From the IMG/VR virus record IMGVR_UViG_3300007511_000001, positions 62,001 to 126,000 of that record: a stretch of DNA of 64,000 nucleotides. The stretch is one strand, 5' to 3'. Both the position numbers and the translations under genes were made by a program. Position 1 is the stretch's first letter. Each line of letters begins with the position of its first letter. This DNA is from a virus. Below are positions 4,375-63,397 of the stretch, in pieces. The notes beneath the pieces were generated by a model. That model had not been told where the DNA came from and searched no databases. It saw only the letters and a program-made list of their open reading frames with translations.

Positions 4375-5727
4375 ATGTCAAACGAAGTTGTAGAACGCTA
4401 TAAAAAATCTAGACAGGGCTTACTAGTTGTAAGACCTACTGGGTCTGGTAAGACCAGGCTTGCCCTTAAAGCTACCCGCGAAGCGCCCAAGAACACTGTC
4501 GTAGGCACAGCTTCTTTGACTAAGAATTTTACTAACGAAGAACTAAAGGTATTCAAAAAAGAGACGCCTAGAAAAGTTACAACTTATTCTAGCGTAGCTA
4601 GAGGAAAAGAGCTGGCTGGTGGTGATAATTTAATACTAGATGAATCTCATTATATAAGGAATCCTCAAACTAGTACTGCTAAAAACTTAAAAGAACAAAG
4701 AAGCAAGTATAATAAGGCGCTTCTTTTAACAGCTACTCCAATAGTTAATGAGCCCTATGACTTAGCTTCACAAGTTAATTTGGTAGCAAACCGTGAGGTA
4801 ATGCCAAAAATAAGAAAAGAGTTTTATAATAAGTATTATAAGGATGTTCGTGTAAAACCGGGTATTTGGGGCAGATTACTGGGAGTTAAATCTGGTACTG
4901 TCCGGAAGTTAAGAAGCGCCGATAAAGTAAGATCAGATGCGGCTCATTTGGTGGATATTGCTCCTAAGAAAGAGTTTGAAAAGTATATGCCTAAGACAAA
5001 GCATGAAAAAGTTCACGTGCCAATGTCTTCAGAACAAATTAAATTATATAAGTATGTAGAAGGCAAACTGCCGTATCATATACGCTATAAAATTAAAAAA
5101 GGCTTACCACCCTCAAAGACTGAAGCCAAGAATTTAAATGCTTATATGTCTGGTTTACGGCAGACCTCGAATACCACAGCCAATTTTGTTAAAGGCGATG
5201 TAAAGCCCGTTAGCTCTAAAATGGATAAAATTATAGACGATATACAGGCAGAAGTTAATAAAAAAGGTAAGGTGATTACTTATTCTAATTTCTTGGGTTC
5301 TGGAACCAGCAGGATCAAATCCAGATTAGATGCTAAGGGCATAAGTTATAGCGAAGTGCATGGAGCACTAAGCAAAAAAGAACGTGCTGCACAGGTAAAG
5401 AAATACACAGATAAGAATAAAACGAACGTATTTGTATTTAGTGGCGCTGGTTCAGAGGGTATTAATTTACCTAAAACCACTATGGTTCAAATAACAGAAC
5501 CACACTGGAACAATGCTCGTGTATATCAGGCGGCTTCTCGTGGAGTTCGTAGAGGAGACGATCCTAATAGAACAGTAAATGTTAAGCATTATTTATCTAC
5601 GTTTCCTAAATCAAGGTTAAACAGGATGGGATTTGGTAAACCTAGAAAATCTGCAGACCAATATTTACATGAATTAAGTCAGCGTAAAAAAGAAGAATCG
5701 GCCAATATATTGAAAGCTTTGGAATGA
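4375..5727 (+). CDS. SF2 DEAD/Snf2-like helicase
   Basis: A 450-residue superfamily 2 ATPase. Walker A is PTGSGKT (residues 21-27), Walker B/motif II LILDESH, motif III LLLTATP, and the second RecA lobe carries VFSGAGSEGINLP and the arginine-rich motif VI (YQAASRGVRRG). The arrangement is closest to Snf2/RapA-type translocases, without an obvious extra DNA-binding domain. Its stop overlaps the next start as ATGA, so it is probably translationally coupled to the LigD-like ligase. A role in repair or recombination is inferred from the neighbours. Its position between virion genes is unusual. Confidence 0.85.
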   Translation: MSNEVVERYKKSRQGLLVVRPTGSGKTRLALKATREAPKNTVVGTASLTKNFTNEELKVFKKETPRKVTTYSSVARGKELAGGDNLILDESHYIRNPQTSTAKNLKEQRSKYNKALLLTATPIVNEPYDLASQVNLVANREVMPKIRKEFYNKYYKDVRVKPGIWGRLLGVKSGTVRKLRSADKVRSDAAHLVDIAPKKEFEKYMPKTKHEKVHVPMSSEQIKLYKYVEGKLPYHIRYKIKKGLPPSKTEAKNLNAYMSGLRQTSNTTANFVKGDVKPVSSKMDKIIDDIQAEVNKKGKVITYSNFLGSGTSRIKSRLDAKGISYSEVHGALSKKERAAQVKKYTDKNKTNVFVFSGAGSEGINLPKTTMVQITEPHWNNARVYQAASRGVRRGDDPNRTVNVKHYLSTFPKSRLNRMGFGKPRKSADQYLHELSQRKKEESANILKALE

Positions 5728-46478: not shown

Positions 46479-46605
46479 TGCGGGCGACTGGATTTGAACC
46501 AGCGTTCCTTGGTCACAGGAGTAGAGATCGTCTACCCGTTTATCCGTGCCTGATCAGAACACGACCCGTACGCAGAAAGGAGTACTCCTACTATACCACG
46601 CCCGC
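46479..46605 (-). tRNA. tRNA-like gene with enlarged anticodon region (127 nt)
   Basis: Perfect acceptor GCGGGCG/CGCCCGC with A73, D arm GTAT-AGTAGGA-GTAC and T arm GCTGG-TTCAAAT-CCAGT, but about 52 nt more than a normal tRNA between them. Two readings are possible: TCCTT/AAGGA closing a giant loop, or a separate arm TCCT-GTGACCA-AGGA (anticodon GAC, Val) preceded by an insertion. The variable region is only about 2 nt. Amino acid uncertain. Confidence 0.55.
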
Positions 46606-46611
46606 ATGAAA

Positions 46612-46691
46612 GCCGGTGAAGGGATTCGAACCCCTGCGGGTTGCCCGGCTGCTTACAAGGCAGCTCCAATCGACCGCTATGGGACACCGGC
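46612..46691 (-). tRNA. tRNA with anticodon TGT (Thr) and a class II variable arm
   Basis: Acceptor GCCGGTG/CACCGGC, anticodon arm GCTGC-CTTGTAA-GCAGC (UGU, Thr codon ACA). A 12-nt variable arm forms CGGG-CAA-CCCG, normally seen only in Ser, Leu and Tyr tRNAs, and the D arm is also class II-like. Base 73 reads T. Amino-acid identity is therefore ambiguous. Confidence 0.75.
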
Positions 46692-49429: not shown

Positions 49430-49432
49430 TGG

Positions 49433-49524
49433 TGCCGGGGGGAGGATTTGAACCTCCAAATGCGTGCGAATGCGCCTGAAAGCCCCGCTCCTAACGGTGC
49501 GTCTGCCAGTTGCGCCACCCCAGC
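49433..49524 (-). tRNA. Class II-like tRNA, anticodon unclear
   Basis: 92 nt. Acceptor GCTGGGG/CCCCGGC, A73, Leu-type D arm (TGGCGCAACTGGCAGACGC) and T arm GGAGG-TTCAAAT-CCTCC are sound. The anticodon arm does not fold cleanly: CCG-TTAGGAG-CGG is the best 3-bp candidate. Likely a Leu-type tRNA or a damaged or insert-bearing one. Confidence 0.6.
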
Positions 49525-49536
49525 TAAAATTTAAAC

Positions 49537-50253
49537 CTAGAACACTCTTCTTATACCATTATATTGGGTATATATTTTTTGACCTTGGGCTGATTCCCAT
49601 TCGAGGTCTTTATGAAAATGGCCGCTGTACCAGAATTTAAATTCTGTACGAAGTTCTATTTCGTCAAGAATCTTGCATACCGGGTCATTTAATTTGCCGC
49701 CTATTCCTGGAACCTGCATTGCATACCAAGTTGGTAAAGTATGGGTAAATATAAAATCAACTTTATAGTTTACCTTTTCTAAATTAGCGAACCCATTATC
49801 AATTTCTTTGTAAGACGGGGTTTCTTCTCTCCACCATGAAATGCCTGGTGTTCTATCAAGCTTATCTATGGAAGTAGCGCCGCCCATTACAAATACTTTT
49901 TTATCCCCAAAGGTATAAACTTCACCCCTGCGAAGATGGAATACAGAATCATTTACTTTACCAACCGGGCCACCGAACATTATAACGGTTTTTAATTTAG
50001 CAAGCCGTTGAAAATTCTCATGGTTACCGTCTATGAACACGGTTGTCCATGGCTTTTCATGCAGCCAATTAAGCCAGTATGCTTCGTGTTTGCTTTGTGT
50101 TTGTTGGAAAATAAAACCAAAATCCCCCAACACGCAAACTATGTCGTTTTTGTTGAGGTCTTTACCTTCGGGAAAATATGTGGAATTTAAATAGGACATC
50201 TCACCGCAGTAGTTGCTGTGTAAATCACCTATTGTATACATACACATACACAT
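49537..50253 (-). CDS. Metallophosphoesterase
   Basis: 238 residues with YTIGDLHSN, VLGDFGFIF, FIDGNHENF, FIFTHTLPTW and WYSGHFHKD: all five calcineurin-like metal motifs. AAAGGAGG precedes the start. This is a different subfamily from the one at 43003. Substrate unknown. Confidence 0.88.
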   Translation of the reverse strand: MCMCMYTIGDLHSNYCGEMSYLNSTYFPEGKDLNKNDIVCVLGDFGFIFQQTQSKHEAYWLNWLHEKPWTTVFIDGNHENFQRLAKLKTVIMFGGPVGKVNDSVFHLRRGEVYTFGDKKVFVMGGATSIDKLDRTPGISWWREETPSYKEIDNGFANLEKVNYKVDFIFTHTLPTWYAMQVPGIGGKLNDPVCKILDEIELRTEFKFWYSGHFHKDLEWESAQGQKIYTQYNGIRRVF

Positions 50254-51150: not shown

Positions 51151-51348
51151 ACTCCCGCCAGGGCTCGAACCTGGAACCTACGGCTTCACGTTTGTGTTGG
51201 TTTCCCAACTCCGTGGACTTTCTCTTTATCTTAGCGTTTGCCTTAGATAGTGGCTGTCAAGTCTCTGCACCTTCTTGACTCGAACCTCCAGAGCTTTTAC
51301 ACCGTAGTCTGGTTAGCAACCAGGTTCCTTACCATTAGGATAGCCCAC
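51151..51348 (-). other. Unpaired tRNA halves
   Basis: The 5' part (near 51348 down to ~51260) has T8A9, D arm TCCT-AATGGTA-AGGA and a serine-type anticodon arm CTGG-TTGCTAA-CCAG (GCU), then a T loop whose 3' stem strand does not match. The 3' part (51151-51175) has a perfect T arm CCAGG-TTCGAGC-CCTGG and acceptor strand CGGGAGT with no 5' partner. A GTTGG-GAAA-CCAAC hairpin lies between. Remnants or pieces of unusual tRNAs. Confidence 0.45.
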
Positions 51349-51352
51349 AAAG

Positions 51353-51426
51353 TAGGAAGGATGAGAATTGAACTCATTGTCTCAGCCTTATAAGGACCGT
51401 GCATTTACCGCTTGTGCTACCTTCCC
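51353..51426 (-). tRNA. tRNA-Ile (TAT)
   Basis: Acceptor GGGAAGG/CCTTCCT, anticodon arm CGGTC-CTTATAA-GGCTG, T arm ATGAG-TTCAATT-CTCAT, A73. Reads the AUA codon, common in this AT-rich genome. Confidence 0.9.
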
Positions 51427-52719: not shown

Positions 52720-52832
52720 AGCCCGCAGCGAGACTCGAACTCGCAACCTAGGGAGTATACACCTCCGGCTGCGATGCATGGGTTGTGTACGTTAATAAGA
52801 CTCCCCTGTTCTACCAATTGAACTATACGGGC
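52720..52832 (-). tRNA. tRNA-like gene with 40-nt insertion (113 nt)
   Basis: Acceptor GCCCGTA/TGCGGGC, U8-A9, D arm GTTC-AATTGGTA-GAAC and T arm GCGAG-TTCGAGT-CTCGC are all canonical. GGGGA/TCCCT occupies the anticodon-stem position, but the loop is 47 nt instead of 7. A second reading puts an arm GGAG-GTGTATA-CTCC (anticodon GTA, Tyr) next to a 40-nt insertion. Base 73 is T, as in glycine or cysteine tRNAs. Amino acid unassigned. Confidence 0.65.
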
Positions 52833-52837
52833 AAAAG

Positions 52838-53011
52838 GGCAAACGACGAGATTCGAACTCGCACTTTTTAAGCGGTCTGTTACCCGCAGGGACCCGCATA
52901 TGGGACTTAAATTCCTTAACCGCTTTCCTTCAGCTAAGACTTGCCACCTATAAGCTTTCTGCGAACGCATAGCTTATTCTATTCACTCTGCCAATTTAAG
53001 TTACGTTTGCC
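52838..53011 (-). tRNA. tRNA-like gene with very long insertion (174 nt)
   Basis: Eight-bp acceptor GGCAAACG/CGTTTGCC, U8-A9, D arm ACTT-AAATTGGCA-GAGT and T arm GCGAG-TTCGAAT-CTCGT. Between D and T arms lie about 120 nt containing a 7-bp helix AAGCGGT/ACCGCTT and an ATAAGC/GCTTAT hairpin. No unambiguous anticodon arm was found. Confidence 0.5.
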
Positions 53012-53015
53012 ATAA

Positions 53016-53134
53016 AAGGGACAGAAGGACTCGAACCCACATTCTCCAGAAAGCGGTACTCATACTATAGACGGGCCCGCCCATGGTCAGCAGAGTCCTA
53101 CCCTCCGGTGTTTTACCAATTAAACTACATCCCT
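53016..53134 (-). tRNA. tRNA-like gene with 53-nt anticodon loop (119 nt)
   Basis: Acceptor AGGGATG/TGTCCCT, U8-A9, D arm GTTT-AATTGGTA-AAAC, anticodon stem CCGGA/TCTGG, 5-nt variable loop AGAAT and T arm GTGGG-TTCGAGT-CCTTC. Everything but the anticodon loop has normal length; the loop is 53 nt and partly self-pairs (ACTC/GAGT). No U33-flanked anticodon is evident. Intron-like insertion or a non-translational tRNA mimic. Confidence 0.6.
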
Positions 53135-53136
53135 GC

Positions 53137-53161
53137 GAATTGTAGCACGCAGCTACAATTC
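53137..53161. other. Perfect 10-bp hairpin in a 200-nt spacer
   Basis: GAATTGTAGC/GCTACAATTC around ACGCA, directly next to the tRNA-like gene. The remaining spacer to 53339 holds AAAGACG/CGTCTTT (53186-53236 region) around a GGTAGGA/TCCTTACC hairpin. No gene is seen. Confidence 0.5.
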
Positions 53162-53339: not shown

Positions 53340-53711
53340 TTAATAATGACGTTTTCTGTGGCAGTTAGCACAAAGAAGAATACATTTATCTAATTCTTTT
53401 TTGATAGATTCTAGGCTTTTAGAAGTTTTACTTATAGTAAAATCCTTATCTCCTTTTATATGATGAAAATCATATATTGCTTTATTTTTATCTCGGGTGC
53501 CGCAGTCTTGACATTTACCGCCAAGATATTCAACTGCCTGTGTTTTTATAAGTTTTCGTCTTTTGCTCCCATACTCTAAACGACATGTTTTACAATAAGA
53601 ATCTAAATATTTCCATATTTGTCCATTTTTACCGCGTTGTTGTTGAGAATAGAAGGATGCACTGGGTTTTTTCTGCTTACATTTTTTGCAGGTTTTTTCT
53701 TTTTTAATCAT
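53340..53711 (-). CDS. HNH endonuclease
   Basis: 123 residues: zinc knuckles CKKCKQKKP and CKTCR, CQDCG, then YDFHHIKGDKDFTISK and CILLCANCHRKRHY forming the HNH motif. Basic throughout. Its ATG is about where transcription from the promoter at 53717-53745 would start, so the mRNA might be leaderless. Placed among tRNA genes like the other HNH gene. Confidence 0.88.
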   Translation of the reverse strand: MIKKEKTCKKCKQKKPSASFYSQQQRGKNGQIWKYLDSYCKTCRLEYGSKRRKLIKTQAVEYLGGKCQDCGTRDKNKAIYDFHHIKGDKDFTISKTSKSLESIKKELDKCILLCANCHRKRHY

Positions 53712-55754: not shown

Positions 55755-56426
55755 TTATACTCCTAACTTATTTATTTTTCTTGGGTCCCACTTGGTCATC
55801 CAGTGAACCCCATCTTCATTTATCTCTTTTACAAACTCTGGGCGAACTATTTTGCCCTTCATTTGTTTACGATAGTTCTTGACAACTATCCCTTCGCGCT
55901 CGTGATCTGTGCTGTAAGCAGATGGCCCTTCTACCAGGTCTTCTATCTCGGTAATAGAATCAACATAGCCCTCATAAAGCAAAGGCACCAGTTTAATTCC
56001 CAGTTCAAAACAGATTAGTTGTTTATCGTCCCTGTTTACAAATTTGCCCTCTTGGAAAATATCTATACAGATAAACCAGTCAGGAAGATTATCATAGTAT
56101 ATATGATGAGTAGCCCACATAAATTCGCCATAGATAATTGTATTCTTTGGCATGTAATACGTCAGGGCTCCCCACCGCTCATTAGCCCACGCTTTCAATC
56201 GACCAAATTGTGGATGTTCTCCCTCGTCTACAAGTGAGCCGCGTTTTTGTAAACGAAAACCGTCTTTGGTAGCGATAATGCCAACGTTAGCACCATCTAT
56301 TTTTTCTTCTACCGTTAAGTAACCGTTAAGAAGTTGTTTAACTTCTTTCTTGCTTAGCTTTCTTTTACCTGAAACATTGTATTTATTTGTAGGTATTCGA
56401 AAAGTTTTTTCGTATTTTCTAAACAT
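55755..56426 (-). CDS. Rnl2-family RNA ligase
   Basis: 223 residues with VEEKIDGANVGI (K42, the RNA-ligase KxDGxN motif), IIYGEFMW, DIFQEGKFV, EREGIVVKN and GKIVRPEF. The order matches T4 Rnl2-like ligases, lacking a large C-terminal domain. It would seal 3'-OH/5'-P RNA nicks, such as cleaved tRNA. AAAGGAGA-type site upstream. Confidence 0.9.
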   Translation of the reverse strand: MFRKYEKTFRIPTNKYNVSGKRKLSKKEVKQLLNGYLTVEEKIDGANVGIIATKDGFRLQKRGSLVDEGEHPQFGRLKAWANERWGALTYYMPKNTIIYGEFMWATHHIYYDNLPDWFICIDIFQEGKFVNRDDKQLICFELGIKLVPLLYEGYVDSITEIEDLVEGPSAYSTDHEREGIVVKNYRKQMKGKIVRPEFVKEINEDGVHWMTKWDPRKINKLGV

Positions 56427-58320: not shown

Positions 58321-58343
58321 TCAGTAAAATAATCTAAAACTAG

Positions 58344-58710
58344 TGGAGACGGCGGGAATTGAACCCGCGTCCATCAAAACCTTTAACCAAAGTCATTCAC
58401 AGCTTAGTTAGTTTTTTACACTTTATTTAAAGACGCTAGTAACGCTTCACTAAACAACGCTCATTATCGTCTACTCCGAGTTGGTCTCCTCGGTTGTCAC
58501 AGAGTGGATTTAAATTTGTATCGCCATTAAATCCCTATGGCTAGTCAGTTATTTTTACGCCACTATCAGTACCAACTAACAGGTCTGTAGTAGCGGGTAG
58601 CCCTCAGGCTGCCAAAGCGTAAGATTTATCATTTAAATTTTGGTAAGCCTATGACTAGGCTTATGCTGCACTTCGATCTCAAATAACGACGTCGAAACCA
58701 ATTCGTCCCC
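58344..58710 (-). ncRNA. ssrA: tmRNA
   Basis: 367 nt. The 5' end GGGGACGAATTGGTTTCGACG is replaced in the text by positions 58710-58690; it pairs with the 3' end CGTCTCC, and the T arm is GCGGG-TTCAATT-CCCGC. The tag frame at 58633-58604 encodes NDKSYALAA followed by TGA, a typical proteolysis tag. The codon before it reads TTA rather than the usual Ala or Gly/Asp resume codon. tmRNA frees stalled ribosomes and tags the peptide for ClpXP. Phage copies are uncommon. Confidence 0.93.
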
Positions 58711-58715
58711 ATAAA

Positions 58716-58804
58716 TTGCGCTGGATGGACTCGAACCACCATTTGCGGGCTCTTAGTAAGCTGGCCAGCTTTGTCCCGTGCGTTACCAACTTCGCCACAG
58801 CGCA
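58716..58804 (-). tRNA. tRNA-like gene with small palindromic insertion (89 nt)
   Basis: Acceptor TGCGCTG/CAGCGCA, A73, D arm GCG/CGC, anticodon stem CGGG/CCCG, variable loop CAAAT and T arm GGTGG-TTCGAGT-CCATC. The anticodon loop region is about 25 nt and contains the perfect palindrome AAGCTGGCCAGCTT. Removing about 16 nt would restore a normal loop. It begins 6 nt from tmRNA. Confidence 0.6.
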
Positions 58805-58971: not shown

Positions 58972-59043
58972 TGCGAAAGACGGGAGTCGAACCACGTGAC
59001 CTTCCGCAGCTCTTGCGGATACTATTCACTGAGCTACTTTCGC
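58972..59043 (-). tRNA. Degenerate tRNA-like gene
   Basis: Acceptor GCGAAAG/CTTTCGC and stem TCCGC-AAGAGCT-GCGGA are good, but U33 is replaced by A, the D stem does not close and the T stem has a bulged T. If functional the anticodon would be GAG (Leu). Probably decaying. The stretch 58805-58971 beside it holds GCTCA/TGAGC and GGCAT/ATGCC hairpins and nothing else I recognise. Confidence 0.5.
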
Positions 59044-59534: not shown

Positions 59535-60425
59535 TTAAAAATTTCCATAATTCACCTGAAAGCAAGGGAGCCCAAGATCTTTACGCCAAAGATCAACTAC
59601 TTGATCTCTATCATCAAGGACGAATTCAACAAAGTATTTATCCTTAATATGCTTCTCGTAAAGCTCACGTTTAACAATCGAGTCTTTTCGCGTATCTCCC
59701 GCAGCTCTCATAAAAACCTTATCATATACTATTGCATTTTTATCAAGCCATTCTATGCTTGCATCTTTAGCTACTCCGTCCCGACCTGACAAGATTATTA
59801 TGCTAATTTTATAACCTTCGAAAAAGGCTGCCTGCGCTACTAATGAGGCCACAGGTTCATTGACTTTATCGTCGCCAACTTTATCCCAATCAAAAGGTCC
59901 ACGTTGACCAGCAAACAATGCAAGTGTTCCATCCAGATCAACAAGTATAGCTGCAGGCAAAGAGTTATCCTGCTTAGCAGCAAAAGAAGCTTCAGGTGTC
60001 TTTACATACTGGTCATGCATATCACGAATAACCTTTTCGCCTACTGAATTGGGTCGGCCAAGATCACGCTTAATACATTCATCAAGTGGAAGATCAAAAT
60101 CTTTTACCTCAACTATAATGTTGGTACCTTGGACCTGGTTAAAGGTCTTAACTAAGCTTTGTATAGTAGTCAGGTGTGATGGGTGAAAGTTAGTATCATC
60201 AATGATAACACTTTTGCCATCAGACAATGCTTTGAGCATTAAATCGTTTCTGACCTGTTTGACAAATTTCTCATTGTCTCTGGACCAATGACTTACATCA
60301 AGCATAGCACGAAGATCATCCTTGTTTATCCGCTTATACCTCCCAGGATGAGCAGCAACCATCTCTTTAGCCCAAGTGGATTTCCCGGAAGCGGGCAACC
60401 CTCTTAGGAAATGTACTTTTCTCAT
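59535..60425 (-). CDS. pnkp: Polynucleotide 5'-kinase/3'-phosphatase (T4 Pnkp type)
   Basis: 296 residues. The kinase domain has P-loop GLPASGKST (9-17) and RINKDDLRAML; the phosphatase domain has DLDGTLA (D163, D165) and ILSGRD...FVLDDRDQV. This kinase-then-phosphatase order is that of T4 Pnkp, which heals 2',3'-cyclic-phosphate/5'-OH ends for Rnl1. Overlaps the RNA ligase gene by 4 nt, so the healing and sealing enzymes are co-translated. Confidence 0.95.
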   Translation of the reverse strand: MRKVHFLRGLPASGKSTWAKEMVAAHPGRYKRINKDDLRAMLDVSHWSRDNEKFVKQVRNDLMLKALSDGKSVIIDDTNFHPSHLTTIQSLVKTFNQVQGTNIIVEVKDFDLPLDECIKRDLGRPNSVGEKVIRDMHDQYVKTPEASFAAKQDNSLPAAILVDLDGTLALFAGQRGPFDWDKVGDDKVNEPVASLVAQAAFFEGYKISIIILSGRDGVAKDASIEWLDKNAIVYDKVFMRAAGDTRKDSIVKRELYEKHIKDKYFVEFVLDDRDQVVDLWRKDLGLPCFQVNYGNF

Positions 60426-61531
60426 TTATTCTCCTTATGTTCAAAATCCCACCAAACCGCTTTCCAGACGAGCTTCATTACCATTTTCTCTTTCTTATCC
60501 CACATGGCAAAGAGTAGTCCTGGGTCTTTATATCGTTGGAAAGTTTTGGCCACGTATTTACGTTCGTCTTCATCTCTTAATCTTGTATCAATAATGAAGT
60601 TTAAAGCATCCCAAGAATACTTAGCATAACTCTCCTTGAATTCCTTGACAAGTTTATCCACCCACTCCCAGTGTTCCTCAAGAACACCTTCTTTGAGCTT
60701 ATCTATTTCGTCGTTTACAAGATACTCGAATACTTTCTTTGGAGTTAGGGATACACGCATGCGTTGTAACTCCTTGTATTCTTCGAATTTAACCTTAACG
60801 CGAAGGTTGCTTGGACGATAGTGTACAACTACACCTTCCTTATTTTGGAAGATATCCTCTGTGCCCCGTTTTACAAGCTGATCAAAATCACTTTCATAAA
60901 CTGTATGGCTTGGAGTATATTCTACCGGCATAGGAAATCCCGGGTTATAGTAATCTAGCTCTTCCCCGGTAGCTGTGTTGATAACCGTTATAAGATAAAG
61001 AGCTTCTTCATCTCCGTAATCAAGTACAAGCCTATCTTCGGCTCTATCTTCTGGGTAGATAATTTCGAATTGATATGTGTAGTTGGGGTTAAGCTGATTC
61101 AGCAAGTGGCTATATTTTTTATTTAATATTTCATTAGCTCTTATAGCTTGCCGGGAGTCAAATGATCCTCTGGTAGCAATATAAGGCTTATCGCCCATGA
61201 AATACATAATGCCGGCATAACCATCTAGCTTATCTTGTATTACATAGTCATCGTCTGGTAGTACGATTCCCTGGTCTTTCAATTCATTATAATTAAAGAA
61301 CTTAGGAATAGGACGAGAAATTATTTTAAACTCATTAGTAGATGTATCTACGATAAGACCTCTACACTGGCAGATAACGTCGTTCCAGCGCCAATTGAAC
61401 ATGGCCTTATGAGCATAGTTATAAATAACTAAAGCGGGGTTGTCAGGATGTACTTGTTTTCTTATATATCCCTCAAGGATCATTTCGTCAATGGCGAATT
61501 CGTCCTCCATTGTCAAGATTCTATTAAGCAT
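60422..61531 (-). CDS. rnl1: Rnl1-family RNA ligase
   Basis: 369 residues with VIQDKLDGYAG (K101), CRGLIVDTS upstream as in T4 Rnl1, EIIYPEDR (motif III region), KEGVVVHY (motif IV) and RVKVKFEEY (motif V), plus a helical C-terminal domain that in T4 confers tRNA specificity. It would reseal anticodon-loop breaks in tRNA. Paired with Pnkp in one operon. Confidence 0.92.
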   Translation of the reverse strand: MLNRILTMEDEFAIDEMILEGYIRKQVHPDNPALVIYNYAHKAMFNWRWNDVICQCRGLIVDTSTNEFKIISRPIPKFFNYNELKDQGIVLPDDDYVIQDKLDGYAGIMYFMGDKPYIATRGSFDSRQAIRANEILNKKYSHLLNQLNPNYTYQFEIIYPEDRAEDRLVLDYGDEEALYLITVINTATGEELDYYNPGFPMPVEYTPSHTVYESDFDQLVKRGTEDIFQNKEGVVVHYRPSNLRVKVKFEEYKELQRMRVSLTPKKVFEYLVNDEIDKLKEGVLEEHWEWVDKLVKEFKESYAKYSWDALNFIIDTRLRDEDERKYVAKTFQRYKDPGLLFAMWDKKEKMVMKLVWKAVWWDFEHKENK

Positions 61532-61962
61532 AGTTCCTCCAATATTGGTTTAAGCACTTTCTTCTGCGCTTCGTTTACCATAAATAATAACATGGTTCCA
61601 TCAACCAAGAGATAATCGTCTACCTCTGGTTTTGTTTTTCTATCTATATCTGAAACAAAAGTAGAGGCACATTTAAGTTTAGATAAATCTATTTCGTGTA
61701 CTTGTATAGAAAATACAGCCATATTTTTATTTTTTATATATGAGTAAGTATCGTGGTAGGTTATAGCAGACGCGGCTACCCCGTCGTCATCAAAAACCAG
61801 TCCGGTTTCTTCTTCCACTTCTCTAAGCGCAGTACTTATTAGAAGTTCGCCATCTTCTTGAACACCTTTCGGCAGAGACCAGAAATCATGTTCGGTTACA
61901 TGGCATAGCAATATCCTGTTGGTTTTTTTATCTATTATTATAGTTGCAGCTGTTGTAACCAT
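61513..61962 (-). CDS. Nudix hydrolase
   Basis: 149 residues from the ATG at 61962 (GGAG site; in-frame TTG upstream rejected). Nudix box GVQEDGELLISTALREVEEETGL follows the Gx5Ex7REUxEExGU pattern (here written in part). FWSLPKG precedes it, as in Ap4A or diadenosine-type hydrolases. Substrate uncertain. Overlaps rnl1 by 19 nt. Confidence 0.88.
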   Translation of the reverse strand: MVTTAATIIIDKKTNRILLCHVTEHDFWSLPKGVQEDGELLISTALREVEEETGLVFDDDGVAASAITYHDTYSYIKNKNMAVFSIQVHEIDLSKLKCASTFVSDIDRKTKPEVDDYLLVDGTMLLFMVNEAQKKVLKPILEELCLIES

Positions 61963-61969
61963 TTTGATC

Positions 61970-62004
61970 TCCAATTAAATAAGCGGGGCAGTTGCCCACC
62001 CCGC
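61970..62004 (-). terminator. Terminator after Nampt
   Basis: GCGGGG (61983-61988) pairs with CCCCGC (61999-62004); minus strand continues TTATTTAATT. It separates Nampt from the Nudix/RNA-repair operon. Confidence 0.7.
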
Positions 62005-62011
62005 ATATTGA

Positions 62012-63397
62012 TTAACTATTTATTCTAGCGCGTACTTCTTCGAAAGTAGTGGGATTAACTACTTTACCGTTCTCGAATACTGTCTGTAAAAGATCCGGTG
62101 CCGCTGGAAAAGAATCTTCAGGTTCGGTTGTGTATGTACTATCGCCGGTTAGCATGAGTTTCAGACGACCTCGTTTGGAATTCTTAGAAGCCATTGTCTT
62201 TGGCTCTTTGTAGATATCGCGGTGTTCACCATCAACGACAGCATCGCAGCATTTGAAAGCAAACTGGCAGGTATCGCGATCAAACTTTTGCAGTAAACCG
62301 CCGCCGGAACCAAAAGCTATATTATCAGCTGAGAATTTTTCAGCTTTCATAGCTGATAGGATTGTCCTGATCATTTCGCGGTCAATTCCATCGCCTTGGA
62401 TAATACGCACGTGTGGATCCAAAACACGATAACCCTTATCGTTGGTAGTTCCCCCGAAACGCTCCCAAAGAATACGTAGTACATTGAGTACCACTGTAGG
62501 AGGATCACCGCTATCCGGACGTATCACAAGAGTGCCCTCGCGTGAAAGAACTTCTTCTTTCAATGCTGTTCCCCAAAGATTACGACAGGCATTGTAGATA
62601 TCGTATTGATCCGAAACACAGGCTACCAGGCCGGTTGGGTACTTTACCAGCATGTTGCGGAAGGCCTCTACTTCGCCGTCTTTGAGCCAAGCTGTCATAG
62701 TACTATGTTCTGAGGCAGGAATAGAGAACCCGATTTCTTTGTACTTGCCGTCATAATACTCGTTGGCAAAATGAAGCGCTGGTAGGGTGTCTGTCCCCAA
62801 GAAGCTGGTCAAATGTGCCATACCGCCTATACCGGCTTGTTCCATGCAGGTTACCCCGCGACAACCGAAATCATGTAATTTGAAGCCGATTGTTTCTGGG
62901 GTGCCCGTGGCTTCCAGGAATTCAAGAATGATTTTCTTGCATTCGTAAGAGTTTGTTGCTATTGTGGTTGGATACCATGTTTGTACTAGCAACGTCTCCA
63001 AATAATTTGTTAACCAATAGAATTCCGGGTCGGTATTTTCAACTGTCATCAAAACATTCCTTATAGGGATCTTAGTGCCCTCTGGAACAGCTTTAATACG
63101 GATAGGCAAAATACCACCATGCTTTTCATATAGATGTCCCCAGCCCGCCAGATTAAACAACTCTTTGTTGCCGAAATGGTGGCCAGCGATAGTCTCTGCT
63201 TCCAGTACATCACTCGGGGTAAATGCTATGCCTTCAAAAAACCTTTTGATTATGTATTGAAGACCAAAAAAGATTGTTGCAGGGAATTCTCCTCCGCGCG
63301 ATTCGAAGTAAGAATACACCTGCTCGGTACATGGCGGATACTGGGGCCAGTGAGTCATTTTATAGCTGTCAGTCAGCATCAGAAGATTGTTCAGCAT
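62012..63397 (-). CDS. nampt: Nicotinamide phosphoribosyltransferase
   Basis: 461 residues, normal family length. LLMLTDSYKMTHWPQYPP, YSYFESRGGEFP, the central GFKLHDFGCRG and SIPASEHSTM and VIRPDSGDPP, and the final FGSGGGLLQKFDRDTCQFAFK are Nampt signatures. It makes NMN from nicotinamide and PRPP. Together with the following NMNAT-like gene it can rebuild NAD+ from the product of NADase defences. 29-nt overlap with the neighbour. Confidence 0.96.
   Translation of the reverse strand: MLNNLLMLTDSYKMTHWPQYPPCTEQVYSYFESRGGEFPATIFFGLQYIIKRFFEGIAFTPSDVLEAETIAGHHFGNKELFNLAGWGHLYEKHGGILPIRIKAVPEGTKIPIRNVLMTVENTDPEFYWLTNYLETLLVQTWYPTTIATNSYECKKIILEFLEATGTPETIGFKLHDFGCRGVTCMEQAGIGGMAHLTSFLGTDTLPALHFANEYYDGKYKEIGFSIPASEHSTMTAWLKDGEVEAFRNMLVKYPTGLVACVSDQYDIYNACRNLWGTALKEEVLSREGTLVIRPDSGDPPTVVLNVLRILWERFGGTTNDKGYRVLDPHVRIIQGDGIDREMIRTILSAMKAEKFSADNIAFGSGGGLLQKFDRDTCQFAFKCCDAVVDGEHRDIYKEPKTMASKNSKRGRLKLMLTGDSTYTTEPEDSFPAAPDLLQTVFENGKVVNPTTFEEVRARINS

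Follow-up and report, generated by a model that had tools for sequence, protein, structure and literature searches.

The closest described systems are the tRNA introns of the Lak megaphages, which Devoto et al. (2019; PMC6784885) termed 'enigmatic' and for which, to the knowledge of those authors, there was no earlier report in phages. A later paper on the Lak phages merely notes these introns (PMC8346664), and the huge-phage and jumbo-phage surveys PMC7162821 and PMC7824862 do not treat tRNA introns. The introns known from bacterial tRNA genes are group I introns (reviewed in PMC3984707). The tRNA introns of archaea and eukaryotes, which are removed by a splicing endonuclease, measure tens of nucleotides and occupy positions in the anticodon arm (PMC4090602), as do the inserts described here.

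The stretch of DNA analyzed here, called the window in the following, comprises 64,000 nucleotides (positions 62001-126000 of a 189-kb virus record). In several of its tRNA genes the anticodon arm is longer than normal by roughly 18-60 bases. To our knowledge the splicing of short tRNA introns is not known in bacteria.

Enlarged tRNA genes in the tRNA cluster of the window

On the minus strand in the right half of the window there is a tRNA cluster with about 17 ordinary tRNAs and a phage-encoded tmRNA gene (58343-58710, minus strand, predicted tag DKSYALAA). Since the tmRNA gene lies within the tRNA cluster we take the host to be bacterial. Four enlarged genes, all on the minus strand, are full-length matches to the Rfam tRNA model RF00005 above its gathering score, and in these alignments their acceptor, D and T arms are intact: X1 (46479..46605, 38.3 bits), X2 (52720..52832, 52.7 bits), X4 (53016..53134, 41.0 bits) and X5 (58716..58804, 47.6 bits). 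For X2 and X4 the RF00005 alignments and an independent parse agree on 7-bp acceptor, D and T arms and on a 5-bp anticodon stem around 47 and 53 nt, respectively, so that the anticodon loops of this size which an earlier note had seen in otherwise canonical tRNA genes are real features of the sequence.

Related enlargements had been claimed for three further places, and two of these could be verified. X1 has 64-66 nt within the anticodon stem (a loop of ~64 nt) together with an unusually short variable loop of 3 nt, and X5 has 25 nt within a 4-bp anticodon stem, its enlarged anticodon arm containing the palindrome AAGCTGGCCAGCTT. The third, X3 (52838..53011, minus strand), is a tRNA-like stretch between X2 and X4 whose acceptor ends match each other with ~120 nt in between; it reaches 21.8 bits, below the RF00005 cut-off of 29, and the match covers 52838-52944 and not the whole of 52838-53011. 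X3 is therefore doubtful as a tRNA gene. The other four of the five window genes are confirmed as tRNA genes whose acceptor, D and T arms are intact and whose anticodon arm carries an insert.

When ARAGORN was run without its intron option, X1, X2, X4 and X5 were all missed. With the option -i it calls three of them as intron-containing tRNAs, namely X1 as His(gtg) with a 57-nt intron, X2 with an intron of 38 nt and X4 as Tyr(gta) with 46 nt. X2 folds into a cloverleaf that lies 3.0 standard deviations below the shuffled sequences (z -3.0); the folds of X1, X4 and X5 are not outstanding against shuffles, their tRNA model scores are.

The cluster holds a few other unusual elements. The sequence at 49430-49524 (minus strand) is called tRNA-Pro(agg) by ARAGORN, but resembles a tRNA-Leu in its acceptor, D arm, long variable region and encoded CCA, with some additional bases around the anticodon. 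A tRNA-Thr(tgt) at 46611-46691 (minus strand) combines a D arm resembling that of tRNA-Tyr or tRNA-Ser with a long variable arm of the class II type, which is odd for threonine. Close to the tmRNA and X5 there is a weak tRNA match of 42 bits (58972-59043, minus strand) with a broken D arm and an anticodon loop of 5 nt, possibly a pseudogene. Immediately upstream of X4 a perfect hairpin, ATTGTAGCTGCGTGCTACAAT, is found at 53139-53159.

Relatives of the cluster were of little help. The single near relative of the cluster that was compared is 100% identical to the window and therefore provides no comparative information. DNA relatives in INPHARED are limited to tRNA-sized scraps, and at the protein level there are four other contigs, one with two ordinary tRNAs and three without tRNAs. 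BLAST searches with the spliced X2 and with X4 did not return informative homologs.

Restoration of the anticodon arm in a wider class of phage tRNA genes

Virus contigs were scanned for D-loop and T-loop motifs lying 20-50 nt farther apart than in a normal tRNA. A first D-loop pattern gave 48 loci, and 28 matches pass a check for paired acceptor, D and T arms. Applied to 257 billion bases of genomes from bacteria and archaea, this pattern found 52 loci, and only 9 of these pass the check. A second D-loop pattern yielded at least 120 stretches. Several pattern matches with a second, nested T arm or with a neighbouring tRNA were set aside. A generic parse of all loci recognizes at least 156 unique genes that resemble tRNA genes and have an enlarged anticodon arm, some of which will be false. 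Many of the enlarged genes sit in tRNA clusters of unrelated phages, and an Rfam search over the enlarged phage genes detects no family except tRNA.

The insert of many of these genes interrupts the anticodon stem in its 5′ strand, and the stem therefore cannot form before the insert is removed. For the 119 genes with an incomplete direct anticodon stem we compared stem-internal splicing with a control in which the ends of the insert were kept and the rest was shuffled. Among the matches listed, a perfect 5-bp stem and a 7-nt loop with U33 and a purine at position 37 are obtained in 38 of the 119 genes, as compared to 1.55 expected. The resulting anticodons are diverse (Lys, Asn, Pro, Gly, Thr, Arg, Gln, Glu, Val, Ile and others). 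Of the 38 genes whose insert is located in the loop, 35 have a purine at position 37, again among the matches listed. The simplest reading is that across the wider class selection has kept the spliced product a tRNA, and the comparison strongly supports the view that the inserts of this class usually are short introns and that a normal tRNA would result from their excision.

These results also bear on the possibility that the window genes are decaying tRNA pseudogenes with random insertions in the anticodon arm. Such decay would agree with the lack of any relationship among the window inserts or between them and other inserts, and the nearby sequence at 58972-59043 does look degenerate. However, four genes have intact acceptor, D and T arms, and in the wider class excision restores the anticodon arm with many different perfectly paired stem sequences, which requires continued selection. 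We therefore consider decay to be quite improbable. The earlier argument that the repeated pattern speaks against random decay holds for the class and carries less weight for single genes.

For the window genes we regarded a splice solution as strict when excision leaves a 5-bp anticodon stem and a 7-nt loop with U33 and a purine at 37. A canonical anticodon arm results strictly for X2 and loosely for X1. No splice site in X4 yields a loop with U33, excision of X5 never gives such a loop, and for X3 the excision test finds no solution. The simplest spliced form of X2 is GGGGA-GUCUUAC-UCCCU with the intron at the canonical position 37/38 and the anticodon CUU. The anticodon is CTT with the intron at 37/38 or 38/39 and becomes TAT, CAT or GTA at other sites; none of these is a glycine anticodon, and U73 and the acceptor sequence of X2 look like those of a tRNA-Gly. 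For X1 the spliced candidate is His(GTG) with only four of five stem pairs and the 3-nt variable loop. X2 is thus the best candidate for an intron-containing tRNA in the window, with moderate support from its sequence, and there are good grounds to expect that it would behave like the rest of the class. The case for X1 as an intron-containing tRNA of this kind is weak, and X4 and X5 might or might not behave in this way.

The failure of X4 and X5 to give a canonical loop on excision invites a different explanation, namely that the enlarged genes encode unspliced RNAs in which the tRNA body only stabilizes and processes a small structured RNA carried on the anticodon arm. This RNA could be a decoy against anticodon nucleases or have some other regulatory function. 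It would fit the fold of X4, whose loop forms one long extension of the anticodon stem as a single hairpin, and there is a parallel in bacteriophage T4 (NC_000866), whose tRNA cluster also encodes the extra stable RNAs C and D, the former with a T arm and an acceptor-like 3′ end as its terminal part. As homologs rnaC and rnaD were rejected, neither of them matching the tRNA model that the window genes match. This explanation leaves unaccounted for the restoration of the stem, U33 and the purine at 37 in the wider class, and equally the intron-less homolog in Pseudomonas phage PaBG described below. We judge it unlikely as an account of the enlarged genes; a decoy or scaffold role is conceivable for the window genes other than X2.

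Other peculiar tRNA genes came up in the scans. In one insert family (L151, 6678-6792; L173, 853-973) the insert ends pair with each other (GAAARYACAC with GTGTRTTTYC) and enclose an inner CACAAGG; insertion is probably after U33. Another family contains a hairpin of the type CGCT..GCA..TTCCTATTAAT (L051, 3733-3846; L062, 8506-8622; L067, 769-885; L068, 1815-1936; L053, 1523-1634), its site probably being after U33 in tRNA-Pro- or tRNA-Phe-like genes. Two T arms in a row are present in tRNA genes of L046, L048, L087, L054, L071 and L074, in some of which the outer acceptor pairs with the second T arm, and these may be composite phage tRNAs of a further kind. L104, a 237-kb contig filed as a Bacteroidetes MAG which may be a wrongly binned jumbo phage contig, has two enlarged tRNA genes in tandem at 5109-5437.

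An insert family with a conserved hairpin and core

The largest insert family, which we call class A, has inserts of about 40-55 nt with a core consisting of a 7-bp hairpin of freely varying sequence, two bases and the motif ACAGCAA (about 45 inserts among the matches listed). In an alignment of 16 distinct class A sequences the hairpin positions are paired in 97.3% of the cells as compared to 54.3% in shuffles, all seven pairs show changes on both sides, and the signal is lost when the partner is shifted by one column. Applied to 22 whole class A genes, RNAalifold recovers unaided, besides the cloverleaf and the hairpin, the two innermost anticodon-stem pairs, which close a loop of exactly 7 nt. 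Insertion is mostly at 28/29 or 29/30, and the 5′ splice site is most often G|UA. An independent scan using solely the D-loop, the ACAGCAA core and the T-loop as criteria gave 44 new genes that could be parsed, and the strict spliced form is obtained in 21 of them (1.58 expected).

Class A genes are also found in cultured jumbo phages, among them Serratia phage BF, the Erwinia SNUABM phages, Pectobacterium CBB, Cronobacter GAP32 and Xanthomonas XbC2, and are annotated there as tRNA-Lys, tRNA-Phe or tRNA-OTHER. Because standard annotation misses or mistypes such genes, the tRNA counts of large phages are affected. The spliced sequence of BF is 89% identical to the tRNA-Lys of Pseudomonas phage PaBG, and the gap in this alignment falls exactly on the inferred intron of BF, which makes the PaBG gene an intron-less relative. 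The predicted splice junction in the tRNA-Lys of Serratia phage BF and Cronobacter phage GAP32 would join CG to ACACTTTTAATGTCG. Comparison thus shows a restored anticodon arm in the class, a structured conserved core in class A and one relative without the intron. A family is thereby delimited by its core and splice sites, by the cultured phages that carry it and by the intron-less relative, and the way in which phages remove such introns becomes directly testable.

The window inserts do not belong to class A. Its motif, the 7-bp hairpin two bases before ACAGCAA, is absent from them, and the alignments that model R1 gives for them fall mainly on the arms of the tRNA. The inserts of X1 to X5 are unrelated to each other, and compared with all other inserts found their similarity is about that of shuffled sequences, none being clearly above it. 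By architecture the window genes belong to the same class, but by sequence only X2 is a good intron case. The spliced introns that the earlier note had considered are strongly supported for the class, owing to excision, the covarying core and the intron-less relative, and unevenly in the window, where X2 has strict solutions and X1 a loose one, X4 and X5 have none with U33 and X3 has none at all.

The invariant single-stranded core following the hairpin of class A is reminiscent of catalytic RNAs and raises the question whether the inserts derive from group I introns that once spliced themselves or form a small self-splicing ribozyme of a new type. Group I introns, being the known introns of bacterial tRNA genes (PMC3984707), likewise interrupt the anticodon arm and restore the tRNA on removal. 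They are, however, ~200 nt or more in length and have a conserved catalytic core, which inserts of the present size lack. RF00028, the model of this core, has no match in the window inserts (a sub-threshold match of 23.8 bits lies elsewhere in the window, at 51194-51405), and at its cut-offs Rfam finds no intron or ribozyme family in the inserts. The earlier note was right in setting the group I introns known from bacteria apart by their larger size, the relevant precedent being the Lak megaphage tRNA introns (PMC6784885). A self-splicing origin seems to us highly improbable, though a small RNA that splices itself is still conceivable for class A.

Putative splicing genes and comparison with known systems

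Weighing these data, we favor with a probability of about 0.6 the reading that the window genes are phage tRNA genes with short anticodon-arm introns which are not of group I, that they belong to a heterogeneous class present in many large phages and that the introns would be removed by cutting, healing and sealing. Against it stand the absence of any sequence common to the window inserts and class A or any other insert, the loops of X4 and X5 without U33, X3 without a solution and the several anticodons of X2.

Splicing itself and the enzymes responsible are inferred, and cutting, healing and sealing appears to be the likeliest route by analogy with tRNA repair. In the precursor the acceptor, D and T arms would stay folded and hold both exons in place, and the 3′ strand of the anticodon stem could serve as a splint that keeps the two exon ends next to each other. 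The insert would then be cut at both of its borders by an endonuclease, and the exons might be healed and sealed by the phage kinase/phosphatase and RNA ligases as by T4 Pnkp and Rnl1 after PrrC.

Candidate genes for these steps, all on the minus strand, are found within or beside the tRNA cluster. A T4-type polynucleotide kinase (59535..60425; phrog_505, E 1.5e-90) is overlapped by the gene of a T4 Rnl1-type RNA ligase (60422..61531; phrog_562, E 2e-58), and within the cluster there are a small RNA ligase (55755..56426; PF09414, E 2.6e-29, phrog_548) and a calcineurin-like metallophosphoesterase (49537..50253; PF00149, phrog_1649, E 4e-34) with a possible role in the healing of RNA ends. An HNH endonuclease gene (53340..53711; phrog_2255, E 2e-31) adjoins X4 and is possibly its homing partner. 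The kinase, the two RNA ligases, the metallophosphoesterase and the HNH endonuclease could together make up a complete healing and sealing set. In 31 intron-bearing records Rnl1 is found in 13, RtcB in 7 and PF09414 above the cut-off in 18, figures that come without a baseline; as the ligases are frequent and not universal, their presence is only supportive of the mechanism. Genes for a NUDIX protein and a nicotinamide phosphoribosyltransferase (61513-63397, minus strand) adjoin the RNA repair pair and possibly serve NAD+ salvage against NAD-depleting defences.

In T4, Pnkp and Rnl1 heal and seal the tRNA cut by PrrC. The window resembles this system in having its kinase and Rnl1-type ligase genes beside the tRNA cluster, and the two enzymes could seal cut anticodon arms in the same manner; the difference is that in T4 they repair PrrC damage, and a role in splicing is our inference. 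A more far-reaching proposal, which we regard as tentative, is that large phages have a dedicated tRNA splicing system outside known pathways, with mobile structured introns of 40-55 nt (class A, the other families and the window inserts) removed by an endonuclease together with an RNA ligase or else by self-splicing as small RNAs of a new kind. If true, this would be tRNA splicing in bacteria outside every known pathway.

Splicing of the phage introns is likely to depend on proteins, as it does for the archaeal and eukaryotic ones. The latter differ in that their bulge-helix-bulge consensus is not seen here, that class A inserts are mostly at 28/29 or 29/30 and that the host is bacterial. For X4 a bulge-helix-bulge can be drawn by hand; its product has a 9-nt loop without U33 and is not a tRNA, and this reading was therefore dropped.

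The tRNA introns of the Lak megaphages (PMC6784885) are alike in that a large phage has tRNA genes which are intact apart from a short insert, and this sole phage report of such introns in the literature searched left them unexplained. Unlike class A, the two enlarged tRNA genes of Lak-A1 (101 and 104 nt) are without the ACAGCAA core; they do not match the window or class A sequences, and a strong class A match was not found in the Lak-A1 genome. The class A core was not found described in the literature searched, which missed most subscription papers. Class A as a family, its breadth and the evidence for its splice sites therefore appear to be new, while the kind itself is already known from the Lak megaphages.
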